Assembly: GCA_949494735.1 (NCBI GenBank)
Contig: CATABD010000012.1
Coordinates: forward strand, 1-46,750
Reading direction: 5' to 3'
DNA from: an uncultured Oscillospiraceae bacterium
GTDB lineage: Bacteria; Bacillota; Clostridia; Oscillospirales; Oscillospiraceae
DNA length: 46,750 nucleotides
The position numbers and the translations under genes are program-made. Positions 906 to 14,908 of the stretch are shown here, one piece after another. Numbering within the stretch: the stretch's first letter is position 1; every line of letters starts with the position of its first letter. The notes under the pieces were generated by a model. The model searched no databases. It was not told the DNA's origin and was given only the letters and a program-made list of their open reading frames with translations.

Positions 906-910
906 TTTTT

Positions 911-958
911 GACAAAGCGGCGCAGGGATTGGCTGACCCATCCCTGCGCCGTTTTGTC
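911..958 (+). terminator. Rho-independent terminator after the NTF2-like gene
   Basis: An 18-bp stem (911-928 with 941-958, one G-U pair) has a core of CGGCGCAGGGA paired with TCCCTGCGCCG and a run of T at 952-955 within the right arm. It lies directly after the NTF2-like stop and before the AraC-type gene. Confidence 0.8.
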
Positions 959-1039
959 AGTCCTGCGAAAATTGAAGATATTTTACAAGCCAGCTCAACC
1001 CTCGGCTGGTATAATGGGACAGACAAGGAGGTACACCGC

Positions 1040-1876
1040 ATGAAAAAAGAAGTACGAACGGTGGTCTACGATGACGAGCTACACATTGAGGCTTACCGTT
1101 TCGAGGGCATCGTGCAGCCTTTTCCGAACCATTTTCACGAATACTATGTGATTGGCTTCATGGAGGACGGAGAGCGTGTCCTGTCCTGCAAAAATCAGGA
1201 GTACACCATCACAAAGGGTGATGTTCTCCTGTTTAACCCAGGGGACAGCCACGCCTGTGTTCAGAATGACGGCGGTACGCTGGATTATCGGGGCTTCAAC
1301 ATCACCAAGGAGGTCATGTTGGATTTGGCGGAGGAAGTCACCGGCAAGCGGGAACTGCCCGGATTTTCCCAAAACGTGATTTTTGATGAAGAAGTCACCT
1401 GCTATCTGCGCCCGCTCCATGAGCTGGTGATGAAAGGCTCCAATGAATTTGGGAAAGAGGAAAATCTACTGTTTTTGATTTCTTTGCTGATCCAGCAATA
1501 CGGCCAGCCTTTTGAGAACTGCGTCCCGGAGTGCCGGGAGGAAATTGAAAAAGCCTGTGCCTTTATGGAACAGCATTATGCCCAGCGGATTTATCTGGAT
1601 CAGATCTGCCGCTGCGCCGGATTGAGCAAATCCACCCTGCTCCGGGCCTTTGCCCTCTCCAAAGGCGTCACACCGTACAGCTACCTGGAAAACATTCGCA
1701 TTGGCAAGGCCAAAAAGCTGTTGGAGCAAGGAGTTCCTCCCGTTGATGCGGCGCTGCAAACCGGCTTCTCCGATCAGAGCCATTTCACCAATTATTTCAA
1801 CCGATTTATTGGCCTGGCTCCTGGTGTTTACCGGGACATATTCAGGGATACGGAGGAAATGCCGCATGAAGGGTAA
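1040..1876 (+). CDS. AraC-family transcriptional regulator
   Basis: A 278-aa protein with an N-terminal cupin-type effector domain (roughly residues 1-150; HFHEYYVIGFMEDG and GDVLLFNPGDSH are typical) and a C-terminal double helix-turn-helix (about 180-275), with LDQICRCAGLSKSTLLRAF and AALQTGFSDQSHFTNYFNR as its two HTH units. The start at 1040 is chosen because AAGGAGG lies 9 nt upstream and the protein begins MKKEVRTVV; the frame stays open further upstream but crosses the terminator. It overlaps the following exporter gene by 11 nt, so it probably controls, and is co-expressed with, that transporter. The ligand is unknown. Confidence 0.9.
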   Translation: MKKEVRTVVYDDELHIEAYRFEGIVQPFPNHFHEYYVIGFMEDGERVLSCKNQEYTITKGDVLLFNPGDSHACVQNDGGTLDYRGFNITKEVMLDLAEEVTGKRELPGFSQNVIFDEEVTCYLRPLHELVMKGSNEFGKEENLLFLISLLIQQYGQPFENCVPECREEIEKACAFMEQHYAQRIYLDQICRCAGLSKSTLLRAFALSKGVTPYSYLENIRIGKAKKLLEQGVPPVDAALQTGFSDQSHFTNYFNRFIGLAPGVYRDIFRDTEEMPHEG

Positions 1877-2780
1877 CAGCACAGCAGGCCATCTCTCCGC
1901 CCTGCTCACGATCATCATTTGGGGAACGACCTTTATCTCTACAAAAATTCTGCTGGCGGACTTCCAGCCGGTAGAGATACTATTCTTCCGCTTTGTCATG
2001 GGGCTGCTGGCACTTCTGCTGGTCTATCCCCGGCGTTTGAAAGGGACGAACAGTCAGCAGGAATTGACCTTTGCCGCTGCGGGCTTGTGTGGAATATGCC
2101 TTTACTATCTGTTGGAAAATATCGCGCTCACCTACACAATGGCCTCCAATGTCGGGGTGATTATCTCCGTAGCTCCGTTTTTCACGGCCATTCTATCCCA
2201 TCTGTTTCTGAAAGAGGAAAAGCCTCATGCCAGCTTTTTCATTGGCTTTGTCGTGGCAATGGCTGGGATCGCTCTTATCAGCTTCAATGGCTCCAAGCTG
2301 GAGCTAAATCCCACCGGGGACTTGCTGGCGCTGCTGGCCGCACTGATTTGGGCCTGCTATTCTGTGCTGACAAAGAAAATCAGTGGCTACGGCTACAATA
2401 CCATCCTCACCACCCGGCGGGTGTTTTGCTACGGTATCCTGTTCATGTTCCCGACACTGTTCCTGTTCAATTTCAAGCTGGAATTGACAAGGTTTGCAAA
2501 TCCCGTATACCTGTTCAATATTCTCTTTTTGGGGCTGGGTGCATCGGCCCTGTGCTTTGTCACCTGGAATTTCGCGGTCAAGGCGTTGGGAGCAGTCAAA
2601 ACGAGCGTTTACATCTACATGGTTCCTGTTATTACAGTGGTGACTTCCGTGGCAATTCTCCATGAAAAAATCACTGCTTTGGCCGCTATTGGGACGTTTC
2701 TGACACTGGCGGGCCTGCTCCTATCCGAGAGCAAACTATTTTTGAGAAATGAGGCAAAACAAAATGGATTGGCAAAATGA
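1866..2780 (+). CDS. EamA/DMT-superfamily transporter
   Basis: A 304-aa integral membrane protein with about ten hydrophobic segments and the two-fold EamA repeat. The N-terminal IIIWGTTFISTK and the mid-protein LLAALIWACYSVLTKK are the matching starts of the two halves. DMT transporters of this type export metabolites or drugs across the cytoplasmic membrane. The start at 1866 overlaps the end of the AraC-type gene and has GGAGG at 1852-1856. Translational coupling suggests that the AraC protein governs export of its own ligand. Substrate unknown. Confidence 0.88.
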   Translation: MKGNSTAGHLSALLTIIIWGTTFISTKILLADFQPVEILFFRFVMGLLALLLVYPRRLKGTNSQQELTFAAAGLCGICLYYLLENIALTYTMASNVGVIISVAPFFTAILSHLFLKEEKPHASFFIGFVVAMAGIALISFNGSKLELNPTGDLLALLAALIWACYSVLTKKISGYGYNTILTTRRVFCYGILFMFPTLFLFNFKLELTRFANPVYLFNILFLGLGASALCFVTWNFAVKALGAVKTSVYIYMVPVITVVTSVAILHEKITALAAIGTFLTLAGLLLSESKLFLRNEAKQNGLAK

Positions 2781-3186
2781 AAAGTGCGTCATGGTCATTG
2801 ACGAGAGCCTGCCCCTGGGTATTATCGCAAATACGGCGGCGATCATGGGGATCACCCTGGGAAAGAAAATGCCGGAGGTGGTAGGGGCTGACGTGACCGA
2901 CCAAAGCGGCAACGAGCATCTTGGCATCATCGAATTTCCTGTGCCGATCCTGCGCGGTTCGCCGGAAATTATCAAACAGATACGGGAAAAGCTCTACCAG
3001 CCTGATTTTCAAGATTTAACGGTGGTGGACTTCTCCGATCTGGCCCAGGGCTGCAAGACCTATGACGAATTTATTGAGAAGATGGGCCACGTTCCCGAAA
3101 GCACCCTGCAATATTTCGGTGTTGCGCTCTGCGGCCCAAAGAAAAAGGTCAATAAGCTGACCGGGAGTATGCCGCTGTTGAGGTAA
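2764..3186 (+). CDS. DUF2000 family protein
   Basis: A 140-aa soluble protein resembling the DUF2000 family: CVMVIDESLPLGIIANTAA at the start, then GKKMPEVVGADVTDQSG and GVALCGPKKKVNKLTG. The family has a peptidyl-tRNA-hydrolase-like fold and no firm function. A start at 2764 is preferred over 2749 because GAGG at 2751-2754 is then 9 nt upstream; either way it overlaps the transporter. It is the last gene of the AraC-DMT run and faces the convergent HxlR gene, with only 3 nt between their ends. Confidence 0.75.
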   Translation: MDWQNEKCVMVIDESLPLGIIANTAAIMGITLGKKMPEVVGADVTDQSGNEHLGIIEFPVPILRGSPEIIKQIREKLYQPDFQDLTVVDFSDLAQGCKTYDEFIEKMGHVPESTLQYFGVALCGPKKKVNKLTGSMPLLR

Positions 3187-3189
3187 AGG

Positions 3190-3534
3190 TTATGCGCCGC
3201 AGCATGGCGGTTGCACATCCAATCCGTCCAGGTAGTCCGTCCCCCATTGACACATGGCATCTATGACAGGAATAATGCTTTCCCCAAAGGCCGTCAGGGA
3301 ATACACCGTTTTCGGTGGCTTCTCCGGGATCACCTCTCTATGTATCATCCCGCATCCTTCCAGATCGTGAAGCTGTTGGGAAAGCATTTTAGGTGTTGCG
3401 CTGGGGATACGCCGCTGTAACTCCATGTAATGCAGAGGCCGGTCTACTAAATGCCAGAGAATGAGCGGCTTATATTTCCCGCCAATCAACGACAGCGTGG
3501 CCTCAACAGGACAATTAAACTGCGTCTGCTTCAT
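3190..3534 (-). CDS. HxlR-type winged-helix regulator (first of three)
   Basis: A 114-aa protein with the HxlR signature: an N-terminal Cys (residue 8), LIGGKYKPLILWHL, then ELQRRIPSATPKMLSQQL as recognition helix and a wing region KTVYSLT. The N-terminal Cys is the position that in characterised HxlR proteins of Bacillus (YodB, HypR) senses quinones, diamide or hypochlorite. It is divergent from the nitroreductase at 3710, the arrangement seen for YodB/YodC and HypR/HypO, so it probably represses that gene until an electrophile modifies the Cys. GAGGTGAG precedes the ATG. The C-terminus carries CC. Confidence 0.88.
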   Translation of the reverse strand: MKQTQFNCPVEATLSLIGGKYKPLILWHLVDRPLHYMELQRRIPSATPKMLSQQLHDLEGCGMIHREVIPEKPPKTVYSLTAFGESIIPVIDAMCQWGTDYLDGLDVQPPCCGA

Positions 3535-3709
3535 AGTCTCACCTCACGCCAAGTATATCATGGTATGTTCCTTTAGAAAAGGACTATCTTTTTGGGAAGT
3601 ACCTACCTAAAAAGTGCAATCTTGTGTAGATTTCTGGATATTGCTAAAATCATAGCAGATGGTACTCCTGATCGTCAGCCATCAAACTATTCAGAAAGGA
3701 CAACATATC

Positions 3710-4228
3710 ATGGATTTTATTACGATTGCTAAAACTCGCTGCTCCATCCGCAGCTACACCGACAAGAAGGTGGAGCCGGAAAAGCTGGAGAAAATTTTGG
3801 AGGCCGCTCATGTGGCCCCCACCGCCGCCAACCTCCAGCCGGTTCACCTTATCGCCGTCCAGAGCGAGGACGGGCTGGCGAAGATTGGCAAAGCCGCAAA
3901 CATCTATGGTGCGCCCTTGGCTATCATCGTCTGCGCTGACCACAACAAGGCATGGGTGCGGCCCTTTGACCAAAAGCAGACCGGGGACATTGATACCTCC
4001 ATCTTGACCGACCACATGATGCTCCAGGCCACGGAGTTGGGTCTGGGCAGCGTATGGGTGTGCTATTTCAAGCCGGATGTTCTGCGCCGGGAGTTCGACC
4101 TTCCCGCCAATCTGGAGCCGGTCAATATCCTGGTGATCGGCTATGCTGGGGAAAACTTTGCTGACCCGGAGCGGCACAGTCAGACACGAATCCCGGTAAG
4201 TGAGCTGGTTTCCTACGAAAGCCTGTAA
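3710..4228 (+). CDS. Nitroreductase-family FMN oxidoreductase
   Basis: A 172-aa flavoprotein of the nitroreductase fold: the N-terminal KTRCSIRSYTDKKVE supplies the FMN-phosphate-contacting Arg/Ser residues, HVAPTAANLQPVH is the central motif, and LGLGSVWVCYF comes late in the chain. Members reduce nitro compounds, quinones or other electrophiles with NAD(P)H. The start at 3710 is chosen over an upstream ATG at 3659 because AGAAAGGA lies just before it and conserved sequence begins there. It sits divergent from an HxlR regulator with a thiol-sensor Cys, which fits induction by electrophilic stress. Confidence 0.88.
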   Translation: MDFITIAKTRCSIRSYTDKKVEPEKLEKILEAAHVAPTAANLQPVHLIAVQSEDGLAKIGKAANIYGAPLAIIVCADHNKAWVRPFDQKQTGDIDTSILTDHMMLQATELGLGSVWVCYFKPDVLRREFDLPANLEPVNILVIGYAGENFADPERHSQTRIPVSELVSYESL

Positions 4229-4238
4229 GCCGACTAAC

Positions 4239-4266
4239 TGCACCAGGGGGGCGTCCTCCTGGTGCA
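4239..4266 (+). terminator. Hairpin after the nitroreductase gene
   Basis: TGCACCAGG (4239-4247) pairs with CCTGGTGCA (4258-4266). The tail is only ACCTTT, so termination would be weak; it ends 25 nt before the next start and may allow read-through. Confidence 0.5.
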
Positions 4267-4290
4267 ACCTTTATGGAAAGGCAAGTTGAA

Positions 4291-4914
4291 ATGGTCACTT
4301 TTTATATCGTTCGCCATGGGCAAACCCTGTTGAATCAACTTGACAGGGCGCAGGGATGGGCTGACGCCCCCTTGACCGCATCAGGAGAGCAGGCGGCAAA
4401 GGAGTTGGGGAAGTCCCTATCTTCCGTTGTATTTCAAGCAGCATACACAAGCGATACATACCGGGCATTCCATACCGCTCGGCTGATGTTAGAAGAACAC
4501 GGCCACCCCGATATTCCAATACATCAGGATGCTCGCTTGCGGGAATGGTGTCTTGGGGTAATGGAAGCAGAACAAAACACCATCTTTATCAAAAGAGTGT
4601 CGGAATGGCTGGGAGGCGTTTCTTTTTCTGAAATGAACAAACGACTTCCAGAGGTTGCCACAGCAATCAAACAGAATGATACTACTGGAATGGCAGAAAC
4701 CTTTGAGCAGATAAGCAAACGGCTAAAGGAACTGCTTATATCCGTTGGATCGGCCTATCCTGATGGCAGCAACATTCTTGTTGTCACACACGCATTTTTA
4801 ATTAAAACGATACTCTATTTGTTCCATTATGCAGGGATAGGGAGTACGTCACAAATTCGCAATACGGATAGTTTTCGCTTGTTCTATGATAATCAGACGT
4901 TCAAAACAGAGTAA
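4291..4914 (+). CDS. Histidine phosphatase (phosphoglycerate mutase-like)
   Basis: A 207-aa protein of the histidine phosphatase superfamily. The catalytic RHGQT lies at residues 8-12, the second Arg in TSDTYRAFHTA, and the second catalytic His in LVVTHAFLIKTI. These enzymes act on phosphosugars, nucleotides or other small phosphates; the substrate here is unknown. A start at 4291 is preferred to the ATG at 4273 because AAAGG at 4277-4281 then serves as ribosome-binding site and RHG is close to the N-terminus as usual. Base composition is more AT-rich than the nitroreductase gene before it. Confidence 0.85.
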   Translation: MVTFYIVRHGQTLLNQLDRAQGWADAPLTASGEQAAKELGKSLSSVVFQAAYTSDTYRAFHTARLMLEEHGHPDIPIHQDARLREWCLGVMEAEQNTIFIKRVSEWLGGVSFSEMNKRLPEVATAIKQNDTTGMAETFEQISKRLKELLISVGSAYPDGSNILVVTHAFLIKTILYLFHYAGIGSTSQIRNTDSFRLFYDNQTFKTE

Positions 4915-4920
4915 AACAGG

Positions 4921-5256
4921 TCATCTTTCTTCCGGCAAATTCTGATCGCCCCAGGTTTTCATGTAATCAATCACATCCATGAAGCTCCGGCCTAAATCAG
5001 ACAGAGTATATTCTACTCTCGGCGGAATCTCCTTGAAGTCATGCCGGATTAAAAAGCCATCGGCTTCTAATTCCCGAAGCTGTTTCGTCAGGGATGACTC
5101 CGTAATTTCACCGAGCTGGCGGCGTAGCTCTCCAAACCTATGGATGTCATTGAAAGCGATATAGTAGAGTATTTCAAGTTTCCACTTGCCCCCCAAGATT
5201 TTTTGGAGCGTTGACATCGTTTTACAGCGTTGGATCGCTGTTTCTGTTTTCCTCAT
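4921..5256 (-). CDS. HxlR-type winged-helix regulator (second of three)
   Basis: A 111-aa protein with an N-terminal Cys (residue 11) followed by the family hallmark ILGGKWKLEILYYI, a recognition helix in ELRRQLGEITESSLTKQL and a wing PRVEYTLSDLGRSF. AGGAGG lies 9 nt upstream of its ATG. It is divergent from the radical SAM gene at 5384, and the shared 127-nt spacer contains two overlapping inverted repeats over the likely promoter, so it is expected to repress that gene and perhaps itself. The Cys position suggests thiol-based sensing, by analogy with Bacillus HxlR proteins. Confidence 0.87.
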   Translation of the reverse strand: MRKTETAIQRCKTMSTLQKILGGKWKLEILYYIAFNDIHRFGELRRQLGEITESSLTKQLRELEADGFLIRHDFKEIPPRVEYTLSDLGRSFMDVIDYMKTWGDQNLPEER

Positions 5257-5306
5257 TTTTCATAACCTCCTGATGGCATTATATCTTCTTTGCAGTCAAA
5301 AAGCAA

Positions 5307-5357
5307 GGTACTGCAAAAAAGTACCGTACTTTTATTTTCTCCGTACCATGATATAAT
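5307..5357 (+). promoter_or_regulatory. Radical SAM promoter with HxlR-type operators
   Basis: TATAAT at 5352-5357 is the -10. The -35 region falls in a perfect palindrome, AAAAGTAC-C-GTACTTTT (5317-5333). A second inverted repeat, GGTACT (5307-5312) with AGTACC (5320-5325), shares its A-rich centre. Two overlapping sites of this form over the -35 suit a dimeric repressor, most simply the divergent HxlR protein. AAGGAGG lies further on, before the start at 5384. Confidence 0.6.
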
Positions 5358-5383
5358 GGCAAAAAAGACAAGGAGGTTCTACT

Positions 5384-6319
5384 ATGCACTACACTGGAAC
5401 AATATGGAGGCCACCCTATGAGGCTTCCTCGCTGTTGCTTGAAGTAACGGCTGGCTGTACCCATCACAAATGCAAATTCTGTACGCTCTACAACGACTTG
5501 CCGTTCAAATTCAGAATGTCACCCCTCGAAGATGTGGAGAGTGACTTGCAGGAGGCACAGCTTTGGAGTACAGACCCTATTGCGCTACTGACGGCCCGTT
5601 TGCAGGGATTACCCAGGCCAGAGCGTATTCAGCGGGCTTTTTTGACCGGGGCAAACCCTTTTGTCTTAAAATCTGAACGGCTCCTGGCTATCGCTGACCT
5701 AATCCGGCAATATGTTCCCTCAATTAAAACGATTGGATGTTTTGCCCGGATCACAGATGTCACGTTAAAGTCGGACGAGGAATTGGCGTCCCTCCATCGG
5801 GCCGGATATGACGGCCTGACAATCGGGATTGAAACAGGCGATGATGAAGCCCTGCAATTTATGAATAAGGGCTATACCGCCGCCGATATTGTGAAACAAT
5901 GCCAGCGGTTAGATCAAGCCGGTATTCATTACAGTTTCTTTTACTTGGTGAGCATTTCAGGCGCTGGCCGTGGTGAGATCGGCGCAAAGGCAACTGCCGA
6001 TATTTGTAATCAACTCCACCCGACGCTCATTGGCGTCAATATGCTGACCATTTACCCGGACTCGGAGCTTTACCAGGAAATCCAGCGCGGCAACTGGAAA
6101 GAGGAAAGCGAGATTGAAAAATACAAGGAAATCCGCACTTTGCTTGAAAGCCTGGAAATACCCACCCAATTTGCCGCTTTAGGTGCGTCAAACGCATTTC
6201 AATTTCAAGGAACGCTGCCAGAGGATAAAGAGGCTCTTGCGGCGGCACTTGATAAAATCATCGAAACCGTAAAAGAAGATGATTTACGGGAGTACCGCGT
6301 CAATCTTCGGCATCTGTAA
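5384..6319 (+). CDS. Radical SAM protein (COG1032-like)
   Basis: A 311-aa enzyme with a [4Fe-4S] site near residue 25 in the form GCTHHKCKFC, that is C-x4-C-x2-C instead of the textbook C-x3-C-x2-C; this spacing also occurs in a clade of small clostridial radical SAM proteins. GIETGDDEAL is the SAM-binding GIESG-like motif. It uses SAM to make a 5'-deoxyadenosyl radical; the substrate is unknown, and no B12 domain is evident. Under the control of a divergent HxlR gene. Its last 20 nt overlap the end of the third HxlR gene on the other strand. Confidence 0.85.
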   Translation: MHYTGTIWRPPYEASSLLLEVTAGCTHHKCKFCTLYNDLPFKFRMSPLEDVESDLQEAQLWSTDPIALLTARLQGLPRPERIQRAFLTGANPFVLKSERLLAIADLIRQYVPSIKTIGCFARITDVTLKSDEELASLHRAGYDGLTIGIETGDDEALQFMNKGYTAADIVKQCQRLDQAGIHYSFFYLVSISGAGRGEIGAKATADICNQLHPTLIGVNMLTIYPDSELYQEIQRGNWKEESEIEKYKEIRTLLESLEIPTQFAALGASNAFQFQGTLPEDKEALAAALDKIIETVKEDDLREYRVNLRHL

Positions 6320-6671
6320 AAGACCCGCCCGGATCGTTGGCTGGTATCACAGCGGTTTGATAATTTGTTCCCCAATCACACAGCGACTTCAAAACGGGAT
6401 AAATACTCTTGCCAAGTTCCGTCAAAGCGTACTCCACTTTCGGCGGATTATCTGGATAGACTGTCCTCTGAACGATTTTCTGATCTTCCAGCTCCCGGAG
6501 CTGCTGTGTCAGCGTTTTCGTTGTGATCTTCCCTAAACGCCTCTGCAATTCATTGAAGCGCACGGCACCTTTGGAAATCTGCCACAGGATTTTCAATTTC
6601 CACTTGCCGCCTAAAATATTCAGCCCGATCTCCATAGGGCATTGTTCGGTAATTGCAACTGCTTTTGCCAT
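6300..6671 (-). CDS. HxlR-type winged-helix regulator (third of three)
   Basis: A 123-aa protein with Cys at residue 11, ILGGKWKLKILWQI, the recognition region ELQRRLGKITTKTLTQQL and wing PKVEYALTELGKS. It is closer to the second HxlR protein here than to the first, which suggests duplication of the cassette. The C-terminus (about 15 residues, acidic) overlaps the radical SAM gene tail-to-tail. It is divergent from the amidohydrolase at 6787, with one palindromic site in between, so it probably controls that enzyme. Confidence 0.87.
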   Translation of the reverse strand: MAKAVAITEQCPMEIGLNILGGKWKLKILWQISKGAVRFNELQRRLGKITTKTLTQQLRELEDQKIVQRTVYPDNPPKVEYALTELGKSIYPVLKSLCDWGTNYQTAVIPANDPGGSFTDAED

Positions 6672-6688
6672 AGCGTTTCCTCCATAGC

Positions 6689-6706
6689 AGTATCAAAAAA
6701 GACACT
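6689..6706. promoter_or_regulatory. Candidate HxlR operator
   Basis: AGTATC, six A, GACACT: a near-perfect dyad with an A-tract centre, 18 nt upstream of the third HxlR start and in front of the amidohydrolase. It has the same general form (half-site, A/T-rich centre, half-site) as the site at 5307-5325. Confidence 0.45.
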
Positions 6707-6786
6707 ACATACCAAAAATGTGCGTTCTTGTTCACTATTCCTGCCTGTGCTATGCTTAATTACGCCATATCAGGGCAAGGAAAGGA

Positions 6787-7599
6787 ATGAAAACCATGAT
6801 TGTAGACAGCCACCAACACGTTATGCTCCCCACTTCCATGCAGATTCAGAAAATGAATGATGCTGGAGTGGACAAAGCGATTCTATTCACAACGATCCCT
6901 CATGTTGAAAGGGCCGCAGCTGCAACCTTAGAAGCAATCGGCGCGGAAATGCAAGTGCTGTACCAACTCCTGTCCGGCAGCTATTCTCCCGAAGCACGAA
7001 TATCAAAAATGAAAGACACCATTCTGGAGCTGAATCAGGCTATCCAGGTCGCGCCAGACCGGTTCTACGGTTTTGGCCCGGTTCCGCTGGGGCTTTCCGA
7101 ACAGGCAACAGCAGAGTGGGTATCGGAGTATATCGCTGGAAACTCCTTCAAAGGCATTGGCGAGTTTACCCCCGGCTCGGAAACGCAGATTGAACAGTTA
7201 GAGCCTGTGTTCAAAGCTCTGGAGGATTATCACAGTCTCCCCATTTGGGTACACACCTTCAACCCGGTTACGCTGAATGGCATAAGAATCCTTATGGAGC
7301 TGTGCCGGATACACCCTACTGTGCCGGTGATCTTTGGACACATGGGCGGTTCCAACTGGATGGACGTGATCGCCTTTGCAAAGGAGCATGGACAGGCATA
7401 TTTGGATTTGTCTGCGGCCTTCACACCGCTGTCGGTCAAGACGGCCCTGACAGAAGTGCCGGGAAAATGCCTGTTCGGTTCTGATGCACCGTTTGGGGAG
7501 CCGCAACTATGCAGGCAACTCATTGAGTTCGTCAGCCCCGCACACTCTGTCACCGAAATGGCCTTGGGCGGCAACATCAAAAGGCTGCTGCAAATTTAA
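6787..7599 (+). CDS. Metal-dependent amidohydrolase (amidohydrolase 2 family)
   Basis: A 270-aa TIM-barrel hydrolase or decarboxylase of the PF04909 type. The metal-binding HxH is in VDSHQHV near the N-terminus, His ligands follow in IWVHTFN and IFGHMGGS, and the catalytic Asp in LFGSDAPFG. Relatives hydrolyse lactones or decarboxylate aromatic acids; the substrate is not evident. The alternative start at 6796 (MIVDSHQH) has AAGGA 9 nt upstream and may be the true one. Divergent from the third HxlR gene and overlapping the MerR gene by 4 nt tail-to-tail. Confidence 0.85.
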   Translation: MKTMIVDSHQHVMLPTSMQIQKMNDAGVDKAILFTTIPHVERAAAATLEAIGAEMQVLYQLLSGSYSPEARISKMKDTILELNQAIQVAPDRFYGFGPVPLGLSEQATAEWVSEYIAGNSFKGIGEFTPGSETQIEQLEPVFKALEDYHSLPIWVHTFNPVTLNGIRILMELCRIHPTVPVIFGHMGGSNWMDVIAFAKEHGQAYLDLSAAFTPLSVKTALTEVPGKCLFGSDAPFGEPQLCRQLIEFVSPAHSVTEMALGGNIKRLLQI

Positions 7600-7973
7600 G
7601 GCGTGTCCGAACAGCGGCGTTCAATCTCCTGCCGGTAAAAAGCAATTTTTTCGTCCAGCATGGCCTCATGCTCCTGCAACTGCCTGATCTGTTCATTCAA
7701 AGATCGGCGGTGCTGCACCAGCATCTCCATACGTTCTGAAAGAGTAGCATCCCCTTTAGCCCTCAGCACCGCATATTTCTTGATTTCCTTTATTGGCATC
7801 CCTGTTGCTTTCAGACGTTTAATAAAGGCGATCCAGGCAATATCCTTTTCCGAATAGCGGCGGCGGTTGCTGGCGTTCCGTAACGGGATAATCAGGCTCT
7901 CATGCTCATAGTAGCGCAGAGTATGTATCCCAAGCCCCGTGACCTTTGAAAATTCTCCAATGGAGTAATCCAA
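7596..7973 (-). CDS. MerR-family regulator
   Basis: A 125-aa protein: winged helix with YSIGEFSKVTGLGIHTLRYY at residues 3-22, then RRRYSEKDI, and a long dimerisation coil (about 75-118) ending ERRCSDTP. It lacks a large effector domain, and its only Cys is near the C-terminus, so the signal is unclear; the short form resembles AdhR-type aldehyde or electrophile regulators. It is divergent from the SDR gene, whose promoter has the stretched 19-bp spacer that MerR activators act on. Confidence 0.9.
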   Translation of the reverse strand: MDYSIGEFSKVTGLGIHTLRYYEHESLIIPLRNASNRRRYSEKDIAWIAFIKRLKATGMPIKEIKKYAVLRAKGDATLSERMEMLVQHRRSLNEQIRQLQEHEAMLDEKIAFYRQEIERRCSDTP

Positions 7974-7991
7974 AAAAATCCCCCCATCCTC

Positions 7992-8022
7992 TTGACATAG
8001 AGTTTACTCTACATTGTATGCT
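7992..8022 (+). promoter_or_regulatory. MerR-type promoter of the SDR gene
   Basis: TTGACA (7992-7997) and TATGCT (8017-8022) are separated by 19 bp, 2 bp longer than optimal. TAGAGT-TT-ACTCTA (7998-8011), a perfect dyad, fills the spacer just after the -35. This is the classical layout in which a MerR dimer twists the DNA to bring -35 and -10 into register. Confidence 0.8.
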
Positions 8023-8054
8023 CTCATTATACCTGATGAACGGAGGAATTTCAA

Positions 8055-8846
8055 ATGGAAACCACAAAAAAATACACCGTCATTACCGGGGCCAGCTCCG
8101 GGATTGGCAGGGAAACCGCAAAAGCCTTTGCAGGACGGGGCAAGAACCTGATTGTCGCTGCCCGCCGCACAGAAAATCTTGAAGCCTTAAAGTGTGAGAT
8201 TTTAGAGCAGCACCCCACACTGGATGTTGTTATCAGGACGGTTGACCTGTCTGTGCTGGAAAGCGTATATCAGTTTTATTTCAGTCTAAAGGACTTCCGC
8301 CTGGAAACCTGGATCAACAATGCGGGCTTTGGAAACTATGACAGCGTGGCACAGCAGGACTTGGGGAAGATTGGCACCATGCTCCGGCTGAATGTTGAAG
8401 CCCTAACCATCCTGTCCTCGCTGTTCGTCCGGGACTATAAAGATACTCCGGGAACACAGCTTATCAACCTGTCCTCCTGCGGCGGCTACACCATCGTCCC
8501 CACGGCTGTTACCTACTGTGCGACAAAATTCTATGTCAGTACGTTCACCGAGGGGCTGGCCTGGGAGCTGATCGAAACAGGCGCAAAAATGCGGGCCAAG
8601 GTTCTGGCTCCTGCGGCAACGCAGACGGAGTTCGGGAAAAAGGCCAACAACGTGGACGCCTACGATTATGACAAAGCGTTTGGTACTTACCATACGGGCC
8701 AGCAGATGGCGGAGTTCCTGCTGAAGCTATACGACGGTGACAGCACCCTCGGAATCGTAGACCGCGAGACTTTCCAATTTGAACTGCGGCCCCCGATGTT
8801 CCCTTATGCGAACAGTTCTACCCATAATCAGCATCTAAGTAAATAG
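8055..8846 (+). CDS. Short-chain dehydrogenase/reductase
   Basis: A 263-aa classical SDR: the Rossmann glycine motif TGASSGIGRE near residue 12, NNAGFGNYD, catalytic Ser in NLSSCGGY and the YxxxK pair in YCATKF. It reduces carbonyls or oxidises alcohols with NAD(P)(H) in the cytoplasm. AACGGAGG precedes the ATG. Its only neighbour on this strand is the regulatory region shared with the MerR gene, so it is probably induced by the MerR signal, for instance a toxic carbonyl compound. Confidence 0.9.
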   Translation: METTKKYTVITGASSGIGRETAKAFAGRGKNLIVAARRTENLEALKCEILEQHPTLDVVIRTVDLSVLESVYQFYFSLKDFRLETWINNAGFGNYDSVAQQDLGKIGTMLRLNVEALTILSSLFVRDYKDTPGTQLINLSSCGGYTIVPTAVTYCATKFYVSTFTEGLAWELIETGAKMRAKVLAPAATQTEFGKKANNVDAYDYDKAFGTYHTGQQMAEFLLKLYDGDSTLGIVDRETFQFELRPPMFPYANSSTHNQHLSK

Positions 8847-8960: not shown

Positions 8961-9019
8961 GCCCCAAAGGAATGATGCGGTCAAAACTGCAACAGCGGCG
9001 GCTCAAGGAGGTAGCCGCC

Positions 9020-9163
9020 ATGAGGCCGAAAGTGTTTCGACCAAATCTGACAAGGAATGACCCATCAAAAAAATCCTGTTTCCCACCATGGGACATTTTA
9101 ACCATGAAGATGAACTATACAATGTCGCCATGGCTAAATTTTATTCTCCCTCCCGCCCGGTAG
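9020..9163 (+). CDS. Possible 47-aa peptide, unrecognised
   Basis: An ATG preceded by AAGGAGG (9006-9012) opens a 47-codon basic frame (MRPKVFRPNLTRNDPSKK at the start, ending PPAR) whose stop lies in the left arm of the terminator at 9155. A second frame over the same DNA also reads well for some distance, so this may be a remnant or a leader peptide instead of a real gene. No family recognised. Confidence 0.25.
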   Translation: MRPKVFRPNLTRNDPSKKSCFPPWDILTMKMNYTMSPWLNFILPPAR

Positions 9164-9188
9164 GTCTACGACCTGCCGGGCGTTTTTT
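9155..9188 (+). terminator. Rho-independent terminator/attenuator upstream of the sigma-like gene
   Basis: GCCCGGTAGGTC (9155-9166) pairs with GACCTGCCGGGC (9170-9181), one G-U pair, then GTTTTTT. A textbook terminator. Because it lies between a short leader frame and the sigma-like gene it could also work as an attenuator. Confidence 0.8.
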
Positions 9189-9246
9189 GCCGTCTTTGGG
9201 GGAATTGTGGGATAAAACCACTTTTTATATGGGGTGCCGTGGCCCA

Positions 9247-9282
9247 CCTCCAGTCTGAATTTTCAAAAATTCAGACTGGAGG
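9247..9282 (+). promoter_or_regulatory. Hairpin sequestering the ribosome-binding site of the sigma-like gene
   Basis: A perfect 17-nt inverted repeat, 9247-9263 with 9266-9282, begins CCTCCAGTC and ends GACTGGAGG. The last GGAGG of the right arm is a good Shine-Dalgarno at 9278-9282, 9 nt before the ATG at 9292, and would be fully paired with CCTCC at 9247-9251. Translation should need the hairpin to open (or use the weaker AAAGGA at 9284-9289). Confidence 0.6.
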
Positions 9283-9291
9283 TAAAGGAAA

Positions 9292-9813
9292 ATGGCAGAC
9301 AGCCATCCAAAAAACCTTGATCCCCGGCCCAAGCGCCGGAGGGATGAAGAAAACCCCTATGAGATATACACCGCGGGCATCAACACAGCCCACCCGCGTT
9401 ACTTTCTGGCGTTTACAGACGGCAGAAAGGTAAAACGCTGGATGGAGATCGACAAGCCCCTGTTCGATGCGTTCAACGAGTTTGAACTGGACGATCTTTC
9501 TTTTTTCAATGAAGTGGACAGGCACTATGAGAAATCCGAGGTGACGGAGGCGACGCTGAACAGGCGGGCAGCAAAGCCCCAGGAGAGCGTGGAAGAAACT
9601 GTTTCTCAGCGGATAGAAGTGGACAAGCTGCATCAGGCAATCGCCCAACTGCCTGAAAAGCAGCGCCGCCGTCTGGTGCTGTACTACTTTGGGGAGTTTA
9701 CATACGAGCAGATTGCGGATATGGAAGGATGTAAGCACCCCGCTGTGATGAAGTCAATTTCTTCTGCATTGAAGAAACTCAAAAATTTCTTGTCCGGGGA
9801 GGTTACAATTTAG
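9292..9813 (+). CDS. Sigma-70 region 4-like protein of an integrative element
   Basis: A 173-aa protein. Residues 1-90 are a family-specific N-terminus (NPYEIYTAGINTAHPRYFLAF), and residues 105-170 form a sigma region 4 helix-turn-helix: LHQAIAQLPEKQRRRLVLYYF, then FTYEQIADMEG and SALKKLKNFLSG. Such proteins are common near the integrase of Tn916/Tn1549-like elements in clostridia, where they probably control element genes; the core region 2 needed for -10 recognition is not recognisable. It lies under a hairpin-masked ribosome-binding site and upstream of the folded non-coding stretch. Confidence 0.8.
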   Translation: MADSHPKNLDPRPKRRRDEENPYEIYTAGINTAHPRYFLAFTDGRKVKRWMEIDKPLFDAFNEFELDDLSFFNEVDRHYEKSEVTEATLNRRAAKPQESVEETVSQRIEVDKLHQAIAQLPEKQRRRLVLYYFGEFTYEQIADMEGCKHPAVMKSISSALKKLKNFLSGEVTI

Positions 9814-9822
9814 CGTTTGAGT

Positions 9823-10392
9823 GAGGAAACAGGTGGAGGGCGATGGAAAGCCCTTCACCTATTCCTCGTTTGTGCGGCGAATGGGTTTGACCTTTGAAAA
9901 CTTCATACCCATTCATCAAGCACATTCCTATTGCCGTGAGCCACTTTTGCCGCCGCGCCAGGATGTGCCGGACAGGACAGCGGGATGCCACACTATCATT
10001 TCGTCCACGGTCTGTTATCCGGCACGGAGCGAGAACCAGCGGCCATGAAATACCGGGCGGCTCCCGGTACGGCCACGACCGGCAATAGGGCCAACGATAC
10101 TCCTGCTCAGTCACAGTCCGAGCGTGAAAGTGTTTCCAGCACTATGCCGTCGCAGGCAATGAGAGCAGCCGCATGAGAACCATGCGGGGGTGAAATTCCC
10201 GTGGAGCTGGTCGCCGCCAGCCGCTTGATGACTTCCCATAGCGAGCCGGGGTGTCGCGGACAAATAGGCTTGCTTTGATATAAGCCGGACAGCGGGACTT
10301 ATTTTATGGAAACGGGAGCGTTCATGCCCCGCCAACCTTGATATGTCATACTGTCCGGCCCCTACATAGGCGGCGCAGGCCGTCTAATTTTT
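9823..10392 (+). ncRNA. Candidate structured RNA, about 570 nt, between sigma-like and mazF-like genes
   Basis: No convincing coding frame, but many stable stems: 9823-9828/9862-9867 enclosing 9831-9841/9850-9860; 9879-9886/9907-9914; 9965-9972/10018-10025; 10041-10044/10071-10074 enclosing 10051-10057/10063-10069; 10169-10175/10181-10187; 10284-10292/10351-10359. The stem GGCTT (10267-10271)/AAGCC (10282-10286) would compete with the last one, giving two alternative folds. GCCGGACAG occurs at 9967-9975 and again at 10284-10292, each with a downstream complement. It could be a regulatory or ornate mobile-element RNA, a 5' leader of the mazF-xis operon, or the element's regulatory DNA. Transcription and conservation are not shown. 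Confidence 0.4.
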
Positions 10393-10410
10393 ATGGGGAG
10401 GTCAAATACC

Positions 10411-10944
10411 ATGAGCAGGACATATTTGCGCGGCGACTTATACTACGCCGACCTGGGCCACGGGATCGGCTCGGAGCAGAAGGGCACCCGGCCCGTCGTT
10501 ATCATCCAGAATAACGTGGGCAACAAGTACAGCCCTACCGTTATCATCGCCGCCATCACCAGCAAGGCCAACATCAAGGCCAAGCTGCCCACCCACTACT
10601 ACCTGGACGCCGGGAACGGGCTGACACAGCCGTCCCTTGTTTTGTTGGAGCAAATTCGCACCATAGACAAGCAGCGGTTGTCCGGCTACATCGGCAGGCT
10701 GGACGAGAAACATATCCGGGGCATCAACCACGCCCTGGCGGTCAGCATCGGCCTGATCGAACCCGTACCCCCGAAACTGACCCTTTGCTTATGCGGCGCT
10801 TGTGCTGACGCTTTTCGCGGCACAGGCGCTTTTGCTTTGCGGGAGGCCGCGCCGGGACAGGCTGAAAAGGAGGTCTGCGTCTACTGCGGCCAGCGCCCCG
10901 GTATGGAGTATGTGGTCACGCCGAAAGGAGGGGCGGGCGTATGA
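10411..10944 (+). CDS. MazF/PemK-like protein with C-terminal Cys-rich tail
   Basis: A 177-aa protein. Residues 1-115 are a MazF/PemK barrel: [11 protein letters not shown], the RPVVIIQNN strand with the conserved Arg, IIAAITSK and [12 protein letters not shown]. MazF proteins are sequence-specific endoribonucleases. Residues 125-177 add CLCGAC and CVYCG, which could form a zinc ribbon, and this is longer than ordinary MazF. No protein antitoxin gene is adjacent on either side. The start is at 10411 after GGGGAGG; the upstream ATG at 10393 lies over that site. The last 4 nt overlap xis (ATGA), so the two are translationally coupled. Confidence 0.82.
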
Positions 10945-11144
10945 GTTATCCTGACGTGCCCATTTGGGAGAAGTACACCCTGACCATCGAGGAAGCGGCC
11001 AAGTATTTCCGCATCGGGGAAAAGAAGCTGCGGAAACTGGCGGAGGAAAACCCGGACGCCAACTGGCTGATAATGAACGGCAACCGCATCCAGATCAAGC
11101 GCAGGCAGTTTGAAAAGGTCATTGACTCCCTGGATGTAATTTGA
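10941..11144 (+). CDS. xis: Excisionase (Tn916 Xis-type)
   Basis: A 67-aa protein with a MerR-like winged helix typical of Tn916-family excisionases: [25 protein letters not shown] followed by [21 protein letters not shown]. It bends DNA at the element ends and steers the integrase towards excision. It overlaps the mazF-like gene by 4 nt and precedes the integrase by 87 nt, the normal xis-int order. Confidence 0.9.
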
Positions 11145-11152
11145 TCGCAGAT

Positions 11153-11180
11153 TTGTATTGAGCCGGAAATATGATAGAAT
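11153..11180 (+). promoter_or_regulatory. Probable integrase promoter
   Basis: TTGTAT (11153-11158) and TAGAAT (11175-11180) with a 16-bp spacer lie in the xis-int gap; AAAGGAG follows before the ATG at 11232. A separate int promoter would let integrase be made without the upstream genes. Confidence 0.5.
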
Positions 11181-11231
11181 ATAGTCAAGTCGTATCAAGG
11201 CTCGTTCCAGTTTTGGAAAGGAGTTTTACCA

Positions 11232-12419
11232 ATGGCGGAAAAACGACGTGACAGCAAAGGCCGCATTTTAAGAACTGGAGAGAGCCAGCGAAAAGACGGG
11301 AGATACGCATATAAGTACACGGACAGCACCGGCAAGCCCCAATTCGTCTATGCCTGGAAGCTGGTAGCCACGGACAAGACCCCGGCTGGCAAGCGGGACG
11401 ATATTTCCCTGCGGGAGAAGGAAAAGGAGATCAACCGGGATATTGCGGACGGCATCGACACCGTGGGCAAAAAAATGACCGTCTGCCAGCTCTACGCCAA
11501 GCAGAACAGTCAGCGGGCGGATGTGAAGCGGGGCACCAAGAAACAGCGGGAGTACCTGATGGGCCTCCTGCGGGATGACCCTCTCGGCGGGAAAAGCATT
11601 GACGCGGTAAAGCCCTCCGATGCCAAAGAGTGGGCCATCCGCATGAGGGAAAAGGGCTTTAGCTTCCAGTCTATCAGCAACTACAAGCGTTCCCTCCGGG
11701 CCGCATTTTTCATCGCCATTGAGGACGATTGTATTCGCAAGAACCCGTTCAGCTTTGCCCTGAACAAAGTTCTGGAGGACGACAGGGGTGAGAAAACCGT
11801 GCTGACGCCGGAACAGGAGGTAAGCCTGATCGACTTCGCACAGAATGACCCGGTATATCAGAAGTACGCCGACGAGCTTATCATCCTGCTGGGAACCGGG
11901 CTTCGCATTTCCGAGTTCTGCGGGCTGACCACGAACCTTGACTTTAAGAGCCGACTGATCCAGGTAGACCACCAGCTTTTGCGGGACAGTGAGAACGGCT
12001 ACTATATCGAAACGCCCAAGACCAAAAACGGCTACCGGGAAATCCCCATGAGTGAGCCGGTCTACCGGGCGTTAAAGCGGGTGCTGAAGAACCGGGGGAA
12101 GAAAGCCACCATCACGGTGGACGGGTACACCAACTTCCTGTTCCTCAAAAGGGACGGGATGCCGAGGGTAGGCGTCAATTACAATGCCATGATTAGGGGC
12201 CTTGTGAAGAAGTACAACAAGCAGCACAAGGAGCAGTTGCCCAACATCACCCCGCACTCCCTCCGGCACACGTTCTGTACCCGCATGGCAAACGCCGGTA
12301 TGAACCCCAAGGCGTTGCAGTACATCATGGGCCACGCCAACATCACCATGACGCTGGACTACTACACCCATGTTGATGCCTGTTCCGTAAAGGCGGAGAT
12401 GGAGCGGCTGGCTGCGTAG
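11232..12419 (+). CDS. int: Tyrosine recombinase, Tn916-family integrase
   Basis: A 395-aa integrase at normal length for the family. Residues 1-75 form the arm-binding domain (RRDSKGRILRTGESQRKDGR), about 85-180 the core-binding SAM-like domain, and about 190-395 the catalytic domain with Arg225 (TGLRISE), Lys in TPKTKNGYR, His342/Arg345 (HSLRH), His368 (GHANIT) and the nucleophile Tyr378 (DYYTH). It integrates and excises the element together with Xis. The gene ends about 180 nt before the hsdM fragment, which places the element's right end in that gap. Confidence 0.95.
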   Translation: MAEKRRDSKGRILRTGESQRKDGRYAYKYTDSTGKPQFVYAWKLVATDKTPAGKRDDISLREKEKEINRDIADGIDTVGKKMTVCQLYAKQNSQRADVKRGTKKQREYLMGLLRDDPLGGKSIDAVKPSDAKEWAIRMREKGFSFQSISNYKRSLRAAFFIAIEDDCIRKNPFSFALNKVLEDDRGEKTVLTPEQEVSLIDFAQNDPVYQKYADELIILLGTGLRISEFCGLTTNLDFKSRLIQVDHQLLRDSENGYYIETPKTKNGYREIPMSEPVYRALKRVLKNRGKKATITVDGYTNFLFLKRDGMPRVGVNYNAMIRGLVKKYNKQHKEQLPNITPHSLRHTFCTRMANAGMNPKALQYIMGHANITMTLDYYTHVDACSVKAEMERLAA

Positions 12420-12470
12420 TAAAGTAGTAAAACAGGAGCGGCAGGCCGCTTTTACTACTTCCGTACTACG
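12415..12470. terminator. Large hairpin at the end of int
   Basis: CGTAGTAAAGTAGTAAAA (12415-12432) pairs with 12450-12470, with a small bulge, around an inner GCGG/CCGC stem. No T tract follows, so it may act as an mRNA end structure or as part of the recombination site. Confidence 0.5.
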
Positions 12471-12525
12471 TTTCAGCGCAAAGTCACGCCGGGATACGCC
12501 GAGATATGCGAATAACTCTCCCAAA

Positions 12526-12600
12526 CGGCAAATGGCGGAAACGCCTGAAAATCAAGGCTTTGCCACCATTTGCCGAGTTACATAAGGTTAGGGCTGGAAA
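12526..12600. other. Right end of the integrative element (attachment junction, approximate)
   Basis: The inverted repeat CGGCAAATGG (12526-12535) / CCATTTGCCG (12566-12575) lies in the last part of the element, as expected of integrase-binding sites. Just after it the sequence changes abruptly to AT-rich hsdM coding sequence whose frame opens after a TAG at 12589-12591. The exact crossover is placed only by this change, somewhere around 12575-12605; the left end is outside the window. Confidence 0.6.
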
Positions 12601-13788
12601 TTGCAAAATCTTTCTATGAAGCCATTACATGGTACTGGATTCGACTTATTTGGGGCTGTTTATGAAATGTTCGCTTCCTCAAAAGAAAAGAAAGACTTTG
12701 GCGAGTACTTTACCAGACGGCATTATACTCATATCTTTGCTAAGCTATTATTGCAAAATGAAGATGTTTATAATTCAGAAAAAGAGTTTTCAATTATTGA
12801 TCCTGCCTGCGGCACAGGTGGTTTTCTTACAGAAAGCTTCAAAGTTTTAATTAATAACTATGAAAAGAGCGGAACTCTAAGTGATGATGCAAAAGAATTC
12901 TTGGCTAAGAGATGTTTCTATGGTGTTGACGTAAGAGATGAGAATATATCAAGAACCAGGTTAAATATGTTTTTGGTTGGTGACGGCCACACACATATGT
13001 ACTCAGACAATTCACTCAAACCGTCGAAATTCCAAGGAAAGTCAGTCCTTGGAAAGACATATCAATATGTTATCACAAATCCCCCATATGGAAGTGGTAC
13101 AATTAAGGCGAATACTAATTCTATAACTACAAATCGAACTGAAATTGCGTTTATTTGTAAAGTAATTGATTTGCTGAATGTTGGTGGAAAGGCTTGCATT
13201 ATTACTCCAGATGGCGTTTTAGAAAATCCGTCATATAAAAAGTTTCGCAAGGAGTTACTCGAACAATGTGAAATATATGCAATTGTTTCCTTGCCCAAGT
13301 TTGCATTCGCTCCATATACAAAAGAAAAAACGTATGCCCTTTTTATTAAAAAGCGCAGTACAAAAATAACAAAAATTCAAGACAAGCCTATATGGATGTA
13401 TATTATTGATAACGATGGATTAGCAAACTCTGATAAACGTTTCCCCACAAAGCTTCGTAACAATCGTAATGGGTGGATGCATGATGAAATATCTGGTTGG
13501 GTTAGCACTGATGGTATAGAAATGCCTGGAATTTTGGAAAAGCGCTGGCTGACTTTTGATGATAGCGAGGCTCATACGAGTTGGATTGACGAAAAAGGTA
13601 TTTCTCAGTGTTCAAGGAAAGGCGGCTTTGTTGCAATACAAGATGTTTGGAACGATAACTATATTACGCTTCTTCCCGAATACTATCTACGTCCATATTC
13701 ACCGCACTACATAGATGAAAAAGATTTTCAGCAAGAATTGGATGCAATAGAGGCTGAGGTCAGGAGGCTTTTAGATGAGATTCCTTGA
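12601..13788 (+). pseudogene. hsdM: Type I modification methylase HsdM, 5' part missing
   Basis: A 395-codon open frame (TTG at 12601 or ATG at 12616 are its first possible starts) that begins inside the N6-adenine methylase domain. FDLFGAVYEMFASSKEKKDF is followed by motif I DPACGTGGFL and motif IV NPPYGSG. Complete HsdM proteins carry roughly 130 or more residues ahead of this, including the helical HsdM_N domain, which is absent. The loss coincides with the integrative element's end, so the element most likely split the gene; the N-terminal part should be found beyond the other end. DNA is strikingly AT-rich against both neighbours. Overlaps hsdS by 14 nt. Confidence 0.82.
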
Positions 13789-14908
13789 CGTTTTTAACGA
13801 AATTCAAAAAGGGGATTATGCTTTAACCGATGAGGCTGTTTATCATTCTTTGCAAAATGGAGATGAGTTGATCCCTCTATATGGTGGCAACAAAAGCCAC
13901 AATCGAACTGATCGAAAGATTTCTATTACTGCAAAGACAAAAAAGGGAGTGCCTATTACTGTTTTTTGGGGAGAGGGAATTATTATAAGTTTGGATGGCA
14001 GTGCAGGAAGCATGACTTATAAATGCAATGAACAATTCTCACTCAATCATCATGCCGGATTTATCACCCTTCGGGATAGTGTAGAAGATGAAGTGTGTCT
14101 CGAATTTTTTGCTCTGTATATGCAGAATTTCTATAAAAGCCTGAGCGTCAGCAATGGTTCCAAGACCTTATCTTTAGAGCAAATATACTCCGTAGAATTT
14201 GATCTACCTGATTTTTCGATACAGCAGAGCATATTGGGAAAGCTAAAGAAAATCAAGAATTTCCTTGATATTTTGCAAAAAGTGGAGGAACGTTATTTAT
14301 CAATTTATGAAAAAGAGATTGTTTTTGAATATAAAGACTACCAAGCAAAAAACATTCCACTTTCCTCATGCATAGACTATTTAAGTGGAAATACTGGGTT
14401 AACTGAGGAAATCATATATCAGATGCAACAGAATGAAAATGAACGCTATTCGGTTTTGTCAAGTGCAACTGAAGAAAGAACAATGATGGGCACTATTCCT
14501 CTTTGTAGCATTAATAACAAATTGCTAAAAGTTTTCAAGGGGCAAGAAGGGCTTTTAGTAACTCGAAATGGGAAAGCTGGGCAAATAAGGTTTCTTCCAA
14601 TCGGGAAATACACAATCAACGATCATGCATACATTCTTTATAAAAGAAAGGATTCGCCGTATCTGATTGATTTACGATGGTTAGCTCTTCAATATCGCCC
14701 ACAATTTTTACAATATTCTTCAAGTGCTGATAATGGAACGTGGAATATGACGGGGTTTTTTAAATATACAAAAATTGATATCCCATCTATTACTGAGCAG
14801 CAAGCTGTTGTTGCAAAATATCTTCCCATCGAAAAACGTATTGAGGAGATTCATAGGGTTATAAACGCTTATGATATACTTCTTACCAAAGAAATAGCTT
14901 TTGCATAA
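13775..14908 (+). CDS. hsdS: Type I restriction specificity subunit HsdS
   Basis: A 377-aa protein with two target-recognition units. The first ends with SLEQIYSVEFDLPDFSIQQSILGKLKKI (conserved helix after TRD1) and the second with KYTKIDIPSITEQQAVVAKYL (conserved helix after TRD2); NGSKTLSLEQI and NGTWNMTGFFKY mark the ends of the recognition domains. HsdS decides the DNA sequence methylated or cut by the HsdM/HsdR complex. AGGAGG is at 13762-13767, within hsdM. No hsdR lies downstream; if present it must be upstream of the element. AT-rich like hsdM. Confidence 0.88.
   Translation: MRFLDVFNEIQKGDYALTDEAVYHSLQNGDELIPLYGGNKSHNRTDRKISITAKTKKGVPITVFWGEGIIISLDGSAGSMTYKCNEQFSLNHHAGFITLRDSVEDEVCLEFFALYMQNFYKSLSVSNGSKTLSLEQIYSVEFDLPDFSIQQSILGKLKKIKNFLDILQKVEERYLSIYEKEIVFEYKDYQAKNIPLSSCIDYLSGNTGLTEEIIYQMQQNENERYSVLSSATEERTMMGTIPLCSINNKLLKVFKGQEGLLVTRNGKAGQIRFLPIGKYTINDHAYILYKRKDSPYLIDLRWLALQYRPQFLQYSSSADNGTWNMTGFFKYTKIDIPSITEQQAVVAKYLPIEKRIEEIHRVINAYDILLTKEIAFA

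Follow-up and report, generated by a model that had tools for sequence, protein, structure and literature searches.

The closest described system to the RNA considered here is canT, which lies in the orf8-xis region of Tn916 and was characterized as a processive antiterminator that works in cis and in one orientation only (Wirachman and Grossman 2024, PMC11658703). As the main text of that paper describes it, canT acts on several terminators, both those of Tn916 and foreign ones, and is required for conjugation and not for excision; canT mutants excise normally. Within a fragment of 400 bp the S3 mutation had little or no effect, and one of 291 nt showed no activity, so that structure and activity are not simply mapped onto each other, and the authors considered structure predictions hard to interpret. 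The terms pemK, Rfam, Tn1549, boxA and NusB do not occur in that main text. Processive antitermination by or with an RNA has also been described for EAR, put and conAn (PMC11658703; conAn also PMC8955417), the last of which additionally needs a protein, ConAn1 (PMC8955417).

Our analysis concerns a stretch of the window, that is, of the whole 46,750-nt piece of DNA that was analysed. The reading that fits best, to which we assign a probability of about 0.8, is that this stretch would encode a canT-type processive antiterminator RNA with the Rfam family RF02913 as its core, an option that the first-pass annotation, made from the letters alone, had not named. The stretch occupies a gap of 579 nt between the stop codon (9813) of a sigma-70 region 4-like regulator gene (9292..9813, + strand; Pfam Sigma70_r4_2, E 2.3e-12) and the ATG (10393) of a mazF/pemK toxin-like gene (10393..10944, +; PemK_toxin, E 2.9e-31). 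The sigma-like gene is the counterpart of the Tn916 gene that precedes orf8, both matching Sigma70_r4_2. A Tn916-type excisionase gene (10941..11144, +; Tn916-Xis, E 8.1e-20) and a Tn916-type integrase gene (11232..12419, +; Phage_integrase and Integrase_DNA) follow mazF. Sigma gene, RNA, mazF, xis and int are probably transcribed as one operon, which a terminator-like hairpin with a 13-pair stem and a T run (9154..9182, +), found by a scan only, would separate from the genes upstream; that scan gave five such sites in 9000-12700, against 4.7 expected by chance. The element probably ends on its right at 12613..12614, where two relatives lose similarity. The same comparison did not locate a left end or its terminators, and since the contig begins at window position 1, it lacks the element's left part. 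Upstream of the sigma gene (486-8846) lie genes for an AraC regulator, a nitroreductase, a radical SAM protein, an amidohydrolase and a short-chain dehydrogenase, metabolic-type genes that are probably cargo. Just past the likely right end, low-GC DNA (12601-14908) carries the M and S genes of a type I restriction-modification system.

It had been claimed from the letters that the gap is a folded, non-coding stretch that no reading frame explains, and both parts of this claim hold. Five open reading frames of at least 60 amino acids lie mostly within the gap (9821-10048, 9894-10088 and 9985-10176 on the + strand; 9803-10114 and 10111-10335 on the - strand), none of which has a Pfam match at E 0.001. 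Among 30 relatives aligned with the window as reference, 27 carry internal indels that are not a multiple of three, and 87 of the 101 indels break the frame; we therefore rejected a protein-coding reading. The predicted fold of 9823-10392 has an energy of -240.2 kcal/mol, compared with -203.2 in shuffled sequences (z -4.94; none of 100 shuffles as good). No tRNA or tmRNA was found.

That the stretch belongs to no named class, as the first reading had it, proved wrong. Positions 10091-10204 match RF02913, "pemK RNA" (Rfam type Cis-reg), with 57.7 bits against a gathering cut-off of 34.8. RF02913 is the only Rfam family above its threshold in the window, which also tells against the suggested large ornate RNA: GOLLD, ROOL, OLE and HEARO all have Rfam models, and none of these came up to its threshold. 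A petD intron match on the opposite strand (E 1.5) lay far under its cut-off and was dismissed. The family reportedly stems from an earlier published study, and it serves as a test set in another work. Its model covers 61 positions, with a GAUACU motif and the helices P3-P5, whereas boxA, P0, P1, P2, P6 and P7, described below, lie outside it, and the pemK association in its name covers only part of the family's range.

The RNA is common. Genomes sampled within the family of the window had RF02913 in 139 of 400 cases and those sampled within its phylum in 26 of 398, whereas 14 control genomes had none; the filters of both large surveys were stricter and lost weak matches. The window's own genome holds a second copy on another contig (L002, contig C34), preceded by genes for a sigma-70 region 4 protein and for an HTH_16 protein, the arrangement of Tn916, and we take this copy for a second canT-like RNA; this copy is without a strict boxA (ACAACTGAATA remains), and its P1 helix is present. 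Two other genomes gave seven matches (G796, locus L005) and 15 (G798, locus L009; one of them below the cut-off), which suggests that there are many such elements per host. A blastn comparison of plasmids and phages led to the core in four public records, all of them above the RF02913 cut-off: a Tn916 copy located in a Streptococcus phage record (L136), a tndX element that we take to be of the Tn5397 type, a vanB element, presumably of the Tn1549 type, and an unannotated Subdoligranulum replicon that also carries a mazF-like gene 64% identical to that of the window. In the Tn916, tndX and vanB elements, the RNA sits between regulators and an excisionase or resolvase gene. The annotation of the tndX and vanB elements calls these regulators sigma-70 family and HTH proteins; that of the Tn916 copy calls them hypothetical, but they match Sigma70_r4_2 and HTH_16.

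The published coordinates tie this family to canT. Placed on the Tn916 copy, where the stop codon of orf8 ends at 4675, the S3 triplet falls at 4958-4960 and reads ATA, as stated in the paper; RF02913 starts at 4958, so that the triplet corresponds to model positions 1-3. The deletion delta162 of Tn916 takes out the 3' strand of P1 together with the core. Given the same place in Tn916 and the position of S3 on the model, it appears that RF02913 forms the core of canT and that the window, by its sequence, carries a canT within a Tn916/Tn1549-like element that gained mazF. The position aligned to the S3 triplet is 10091..10093 (+), where the window has CCA for the ATA of Tn916, with only the last A common to both; C at the first position occurs in two of 43 sequences, the window among them, and A in 37. 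Our literature search, thin on subscription journals, found no paper that joins canT with RF02913.

The whole RNA, all of it on the + strand, spans about 385 nt, with a boxA at its 5' edge, a branched domain closed by P0, then P1 and the core, and P7 ending at 10274. P0 closes the branched domain just 3' of boxA by pairing 9913..9921 with 10223..10231, and within it P1 pairs 9927..9936 with 10080..10089 at ten of ten positions. The P1 domain contains the P2 region (9965..10025; 9965-9972 pairs with 10018-10025), which is helix 7 of the consensus and has six of nine pairs changed on both sides; the conserved GGAGCGAG right after it (10026-10033); and a hairpin UACCGGG / CCCGGUA (10051..10069), consensus helix 11. 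The RF02913 core (10091..10204) contributes the GAUACU motif, P3 (10103-10108 with 10163-10168), the P4 hairpin (10168-10187) and the P5 hairpin (10187-10200), with covariation. The P6 hairpin (10204..10221) comes from the consensus fold, and since its pairs never vary in the alignment, its covariation is neutral. P7 (10240..10274) is a stem around GGGGUGUCGCGGACAAAUA that pairs 10240-10247 with 10267-10274 and corresponds to helices 17 and 18, and a leader helix formed by GCCGGACAG and CTGTCCGGC follows close to mazF (10284..10359). Two further details of the first-pass annotation could be placed on this structure. The repeat GCCGGACAG indeed occurs twice (9967-9975 and 10284-10292); the first copy overlaps P2 and the second pairs with CTGTCCGGC at 10351-10359. 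The mutually exclusive pairings noticed near 10267-10359 are also there, and the upstream one, P7, is favoured, with six of its eight pairs changed on both sides among 31 sequences.

Covariation, proposed as a check of the fold, proved strong and confirms a structured RNA whose stems covary. The first alignment (A2) took in the full domain in the window and in 30 relatives, with the structure taken from RNAalifold. Paired bases filled 98.5% of 2866 cells, compared with 93.5% in shuffles, and 36 of 94 pairs had changed on both sides, compared with 15.2 in shuffles (0 of 500 as high) and with 6-11 in slid controls, over which the structure is favoured because it derives from the same alignment; the shuffle statistics ignore the relatedness of the sequences. 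The second alignment (A1) covered the 3' part in 43 diverse sequences, some of which end near P6. It represents 43 of the 45 sequences that remained of 71 after reduction at 93% similarity, L002 and L087 being left out. Rows in which the pattern found no core had been dropped (L091, L093, L098, L008, L023, L030 and L035), as had L102, with a wrong core, and L018 and others, with short upstream sequence; L038, L147, L148, L160 and L161 are also outside the set. Over the 13 pairs of P3-P5 it gave 103 cells with a double change, compared with 29.6 in shuffles (none of 500 had as many), and the weaker measure, the number of pairs with a double change, was 10 against 7.5 (6 of 500 as high).

For P0 and P1, whose sequences differ between lineages, we compared true partner strands with partners swapped between loci. 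P1 had a mean score of 20.7 against 13.9 for swapped partners in the 36 loci with a strict boxA (0 of 5000 permutations), and 22 of the 36 true pairs, each taken singly, scored above 90% or more of the swapped ones; five loci have their best helix away from the expected place (L110, L112, L122, L131, L134). P0 scored 22.0 against 16.6 in 35 loci (L032, without a P5 match, was out; 0 of 5000) and 22.5 against 16.3 in the 28 loci left without the close relatives L003-L034 (0 of 5000), its best helix lying elsewhere in L109, L110, L112, L127, L131 and L134. Both helices thus keep their complementarity while their sequences change.

The compensatory changes in the two alignments indicate that RNA pairing is under selection, and they bear on the idea that the stretch is a DNA site for recombination, as the first-pass annotation had offered among its options, or else a small RNA acting in trans. 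Its closeness to xis-int in the window would suit either, but the canT of Tn916 acts in cis and in one orientation, with mutants that excise normally according to the main text of the report (PMC11658703). Because the RNA is kept with a different recombinase, the resolvase TndX, instead of Xis/Int, and in view of that normal excision, recombination DNA is unlikely, and we regard the two possibilities taken together as very improbable.

The canT-type reading gains from the element at the 5' edge of the RNA. The window has a boxA-like sequence, CTTTGAAAACT, at 9892..9902 (+), the letters of which are those of a motif found 3' of 16S genes in three other genomes, and we take this motif downstream of 16S rRNA genes to be boxA. 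The pattern YYTTGAHAA stands 5' of P1 in 36 of the 44 loci with enough sequence, compared with 1.98 expected from dinucleotide shuffles, and the strict pattern is absent in the other eight. In 31 of the 36 loci, boxA and the best helix lie 32-38 nt apart, while the interior ranges from 73 to 190 nt; one of the 31, L134, has a best helix that is not the expected P1. As for the ribosomal counterparts, CTTTGAAAACTG or TCTTGAAAACTG lies 3' of 16S genes in G125, G579, G604 and G765, all of which also carry the RF02913 RNA. The same or a close motif was seen in seven of 13 rRNA operons examined and in four of six genomes (G125, two of three operons; G579, two of two; G604, one of one; G765, two of four), and was unseen in six operons, one of which, a third operon of G765, has a doubtful variant. 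None was found 3' of 16S in G370 (two operons) or G074 (one), and a further six genomes searched gave no 16S gene. In the window itself, GAATGGGT and ACCCATTC form a hairpin (9879-9914) that has boxA in its loop and overlaps P0 by two bases. The active 452-bp fragment of Tn916 begins inside boxA, keeping TTGAAAACT and losing the preceding CT, and the full boxA is thus dispensable in that fragment. Among the titles and abstract beginnings that a literature search, thin on subscription journals, listed on this subject, none concerns boxA in Tn916-like elements.

A second group of observations concerns mazF. If the Rfam name and type (pemK, Cis-reg) are taken at face value, the RNA would be a cis-regulatory leader, a riboswitch or an attenuator, for mazF, and the first-pass annotation had also thought of a leader that controls mazF-xis. 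The stretch is present in 35 of the 80 MazF loci retrieved. All 35 are among the first 36 of the list, and it was found in none of the remaining 44, of which L039 and L068 came without upstream sequence. Only 13 of the 35 have a Tn916-type xis, the sequence of some loci ending early. Of 45 proteins encoded downstream of the RNA, ten are PemK, nine Resolvase, seven HTH_17, four Tn916-Xis and four AAA_31/ParA; at least one more PemK is missing from the set, since the gene of L123 was left out, so that PemK is undercounted. Upstream, 17 of 45 proteins are Sigma70_r4_2 and five HTH_16, the rest matching other families or nothing. These downstream (A3) and upstream (A4) sets rest mostly on crude ORF calls, chosen by hand among 54 upstream, 48 first-downstream and 21 second-downstream ones. 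For the window, L002, L134 and L136 the genes used are annotated or placed by hand, and L122, L131 and L134 contribute two downstream proteins each. MazF-type genes are frequent, and not constant, neighbours of the RNA. PemK also follows the RNA next to DUF6551 (L119) or a serine recombinase (L123), and in L130 its neighbours are an HTH_17 gene and a weak match to an integrase.

The leader reading also draws on the extra helix and the terminator-like hairpin directly before mazF. CTACATAGG and this hairpin (10362..10386, +; the hairpin at 10367-10386, then ATTTTT) adjoin the mazF ribosome-binding site. As a terminator the hairpin was not retained: it is conserved, with the T run lost in L027, L029, L031 and L135, and the scan placed it at the level of chance (5 sites against 4.7). 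TACATA is present in 39 of 80 loci, many of them close relatives, compared with 3.6 expected, and stands just 5' of mazF in the window (10362-10370) and in 25 of the 26 near-family relatives listed. UACAU is the cut site of MazF of the B. subtilis type, and MazF might thus cut its own leader; as a MazF-specific site, however, UACAU was set aside because it also precedes ParA-type genes (L125, L099, L107) and is absent in the mazF loci L034 and L130. Against a leader for mazF, or for mazF-xis, stands the fact that the RNA precedes xis, resolvase-type recombinases or ParA with no mazF between. It occurs without an adjacent mazF in elements of the Tn916, Tn5397 and Tn1549 types, and its use extends beyond the Tn916 order, since in L095, L099, L107 and L125 the first gene after it is parA-like and not a recombinase (parB comes next in L125). 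Moreover, its Tn916 homologue, with no mazF beside it, acts on Tn916 and foreign terminators alike, as the main text of the report has it (PMC11658703). The RNA is thus not specifically a mazF-xis leader, and we consider a leader that controls mazF very unlikely.

The lack of an antitoxin gene on either side of mazF, whose neighbours are the RNA and xis, could suggest that the RNA is itself the antitoxin, in a pair of the type III-like kind. Yet tandem repeats are absent from the stretch, whose only direct repeats are two short, mutually overlapping families; the RNA stands without an adjacent mazF in the Tn916, Tn5397 and Tn1549 types, and the conservation of its core is common to mazF-free elements. 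This explanation strikes us as very unlikely.

The reading as a canT-type antiterminator takes cis action, orientation dependence, processivity and the need for conjugation from what is known for Tn916, and place, core, anatomy and covariation from the window; across loci, the downstream genes vary and the RNA stays. We propose that the nascent RNA would fold into its P0-closed domain with an rRNA-type boxA at the 5' edge. It would then act in cis on its own polymerase, so that intrinsic terminators would be ignored and the polymerase would read through mazF, xis and int and, in the circular form, would continue over the junction of the two ends into the transfer genes. An association of boxA with S10 and NusB is stated in one report (PMC12691694), and here boxA might recruit NusB-S10 and further Nus factors, as it does in rRNA operons. 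We infer that the window's copy is transcribed and active, a point against which the CCA at the S3 position counts.

If this were so, it is tempting to speculate that conjugative elements took a ribosomal boxA and joined it to a large folded RNA to extend antitermination of the rRNA style through a whole transfer operon. RF02913 would then be an antiterminator and, among regulatory RNAs in the conjugative elements of Firmicutes, one of the most frequent, and mazF a passenger expressed when the element is ready for transfer; we hold this wider picture tentatively, at somewhat less than even odds. The RNA of the window is real, ordinary in kind, and informative. The analysis offers a likely function for RF02913, labelled so far only as a pemK cis-regulator, it gives canT a consensus fold backed by covariation, and it points to a concrete mechanism, boxA with host Nus factors, that would couple excision to the expression of transfer genes. 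Such a mechanism would concern elements of the Tn916/Tn1549 type, a carrier of vanB among them.

Compared with known systems, the window resembles canT of Tn916 most: in both, the RNA lies between regulators and xis on the same strand, and RF02913 core, boxA-like sequence, P0 and P1 are at equivalent positions. The two differ in that the interior of P1 is longer in the window (143 nt against 104 nt), in the added P7 block, in the mazF between RNA and xis, and in the CCA for ATA; moreover, what directly precedes the RNA in the window is the sigma gene, with no HTH gene like orf8 in between. As for EAR, put and conAn, which share the principle of antitermination by or with an RNA, no family other than RF02913 stood above its Rfam threshold in the window, and we know of no sequence common to them and the window RNA. 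The boxA of rRNA operons, finally, has its motif in common with the window, where, however, a large folded and conserved domain comes after it.
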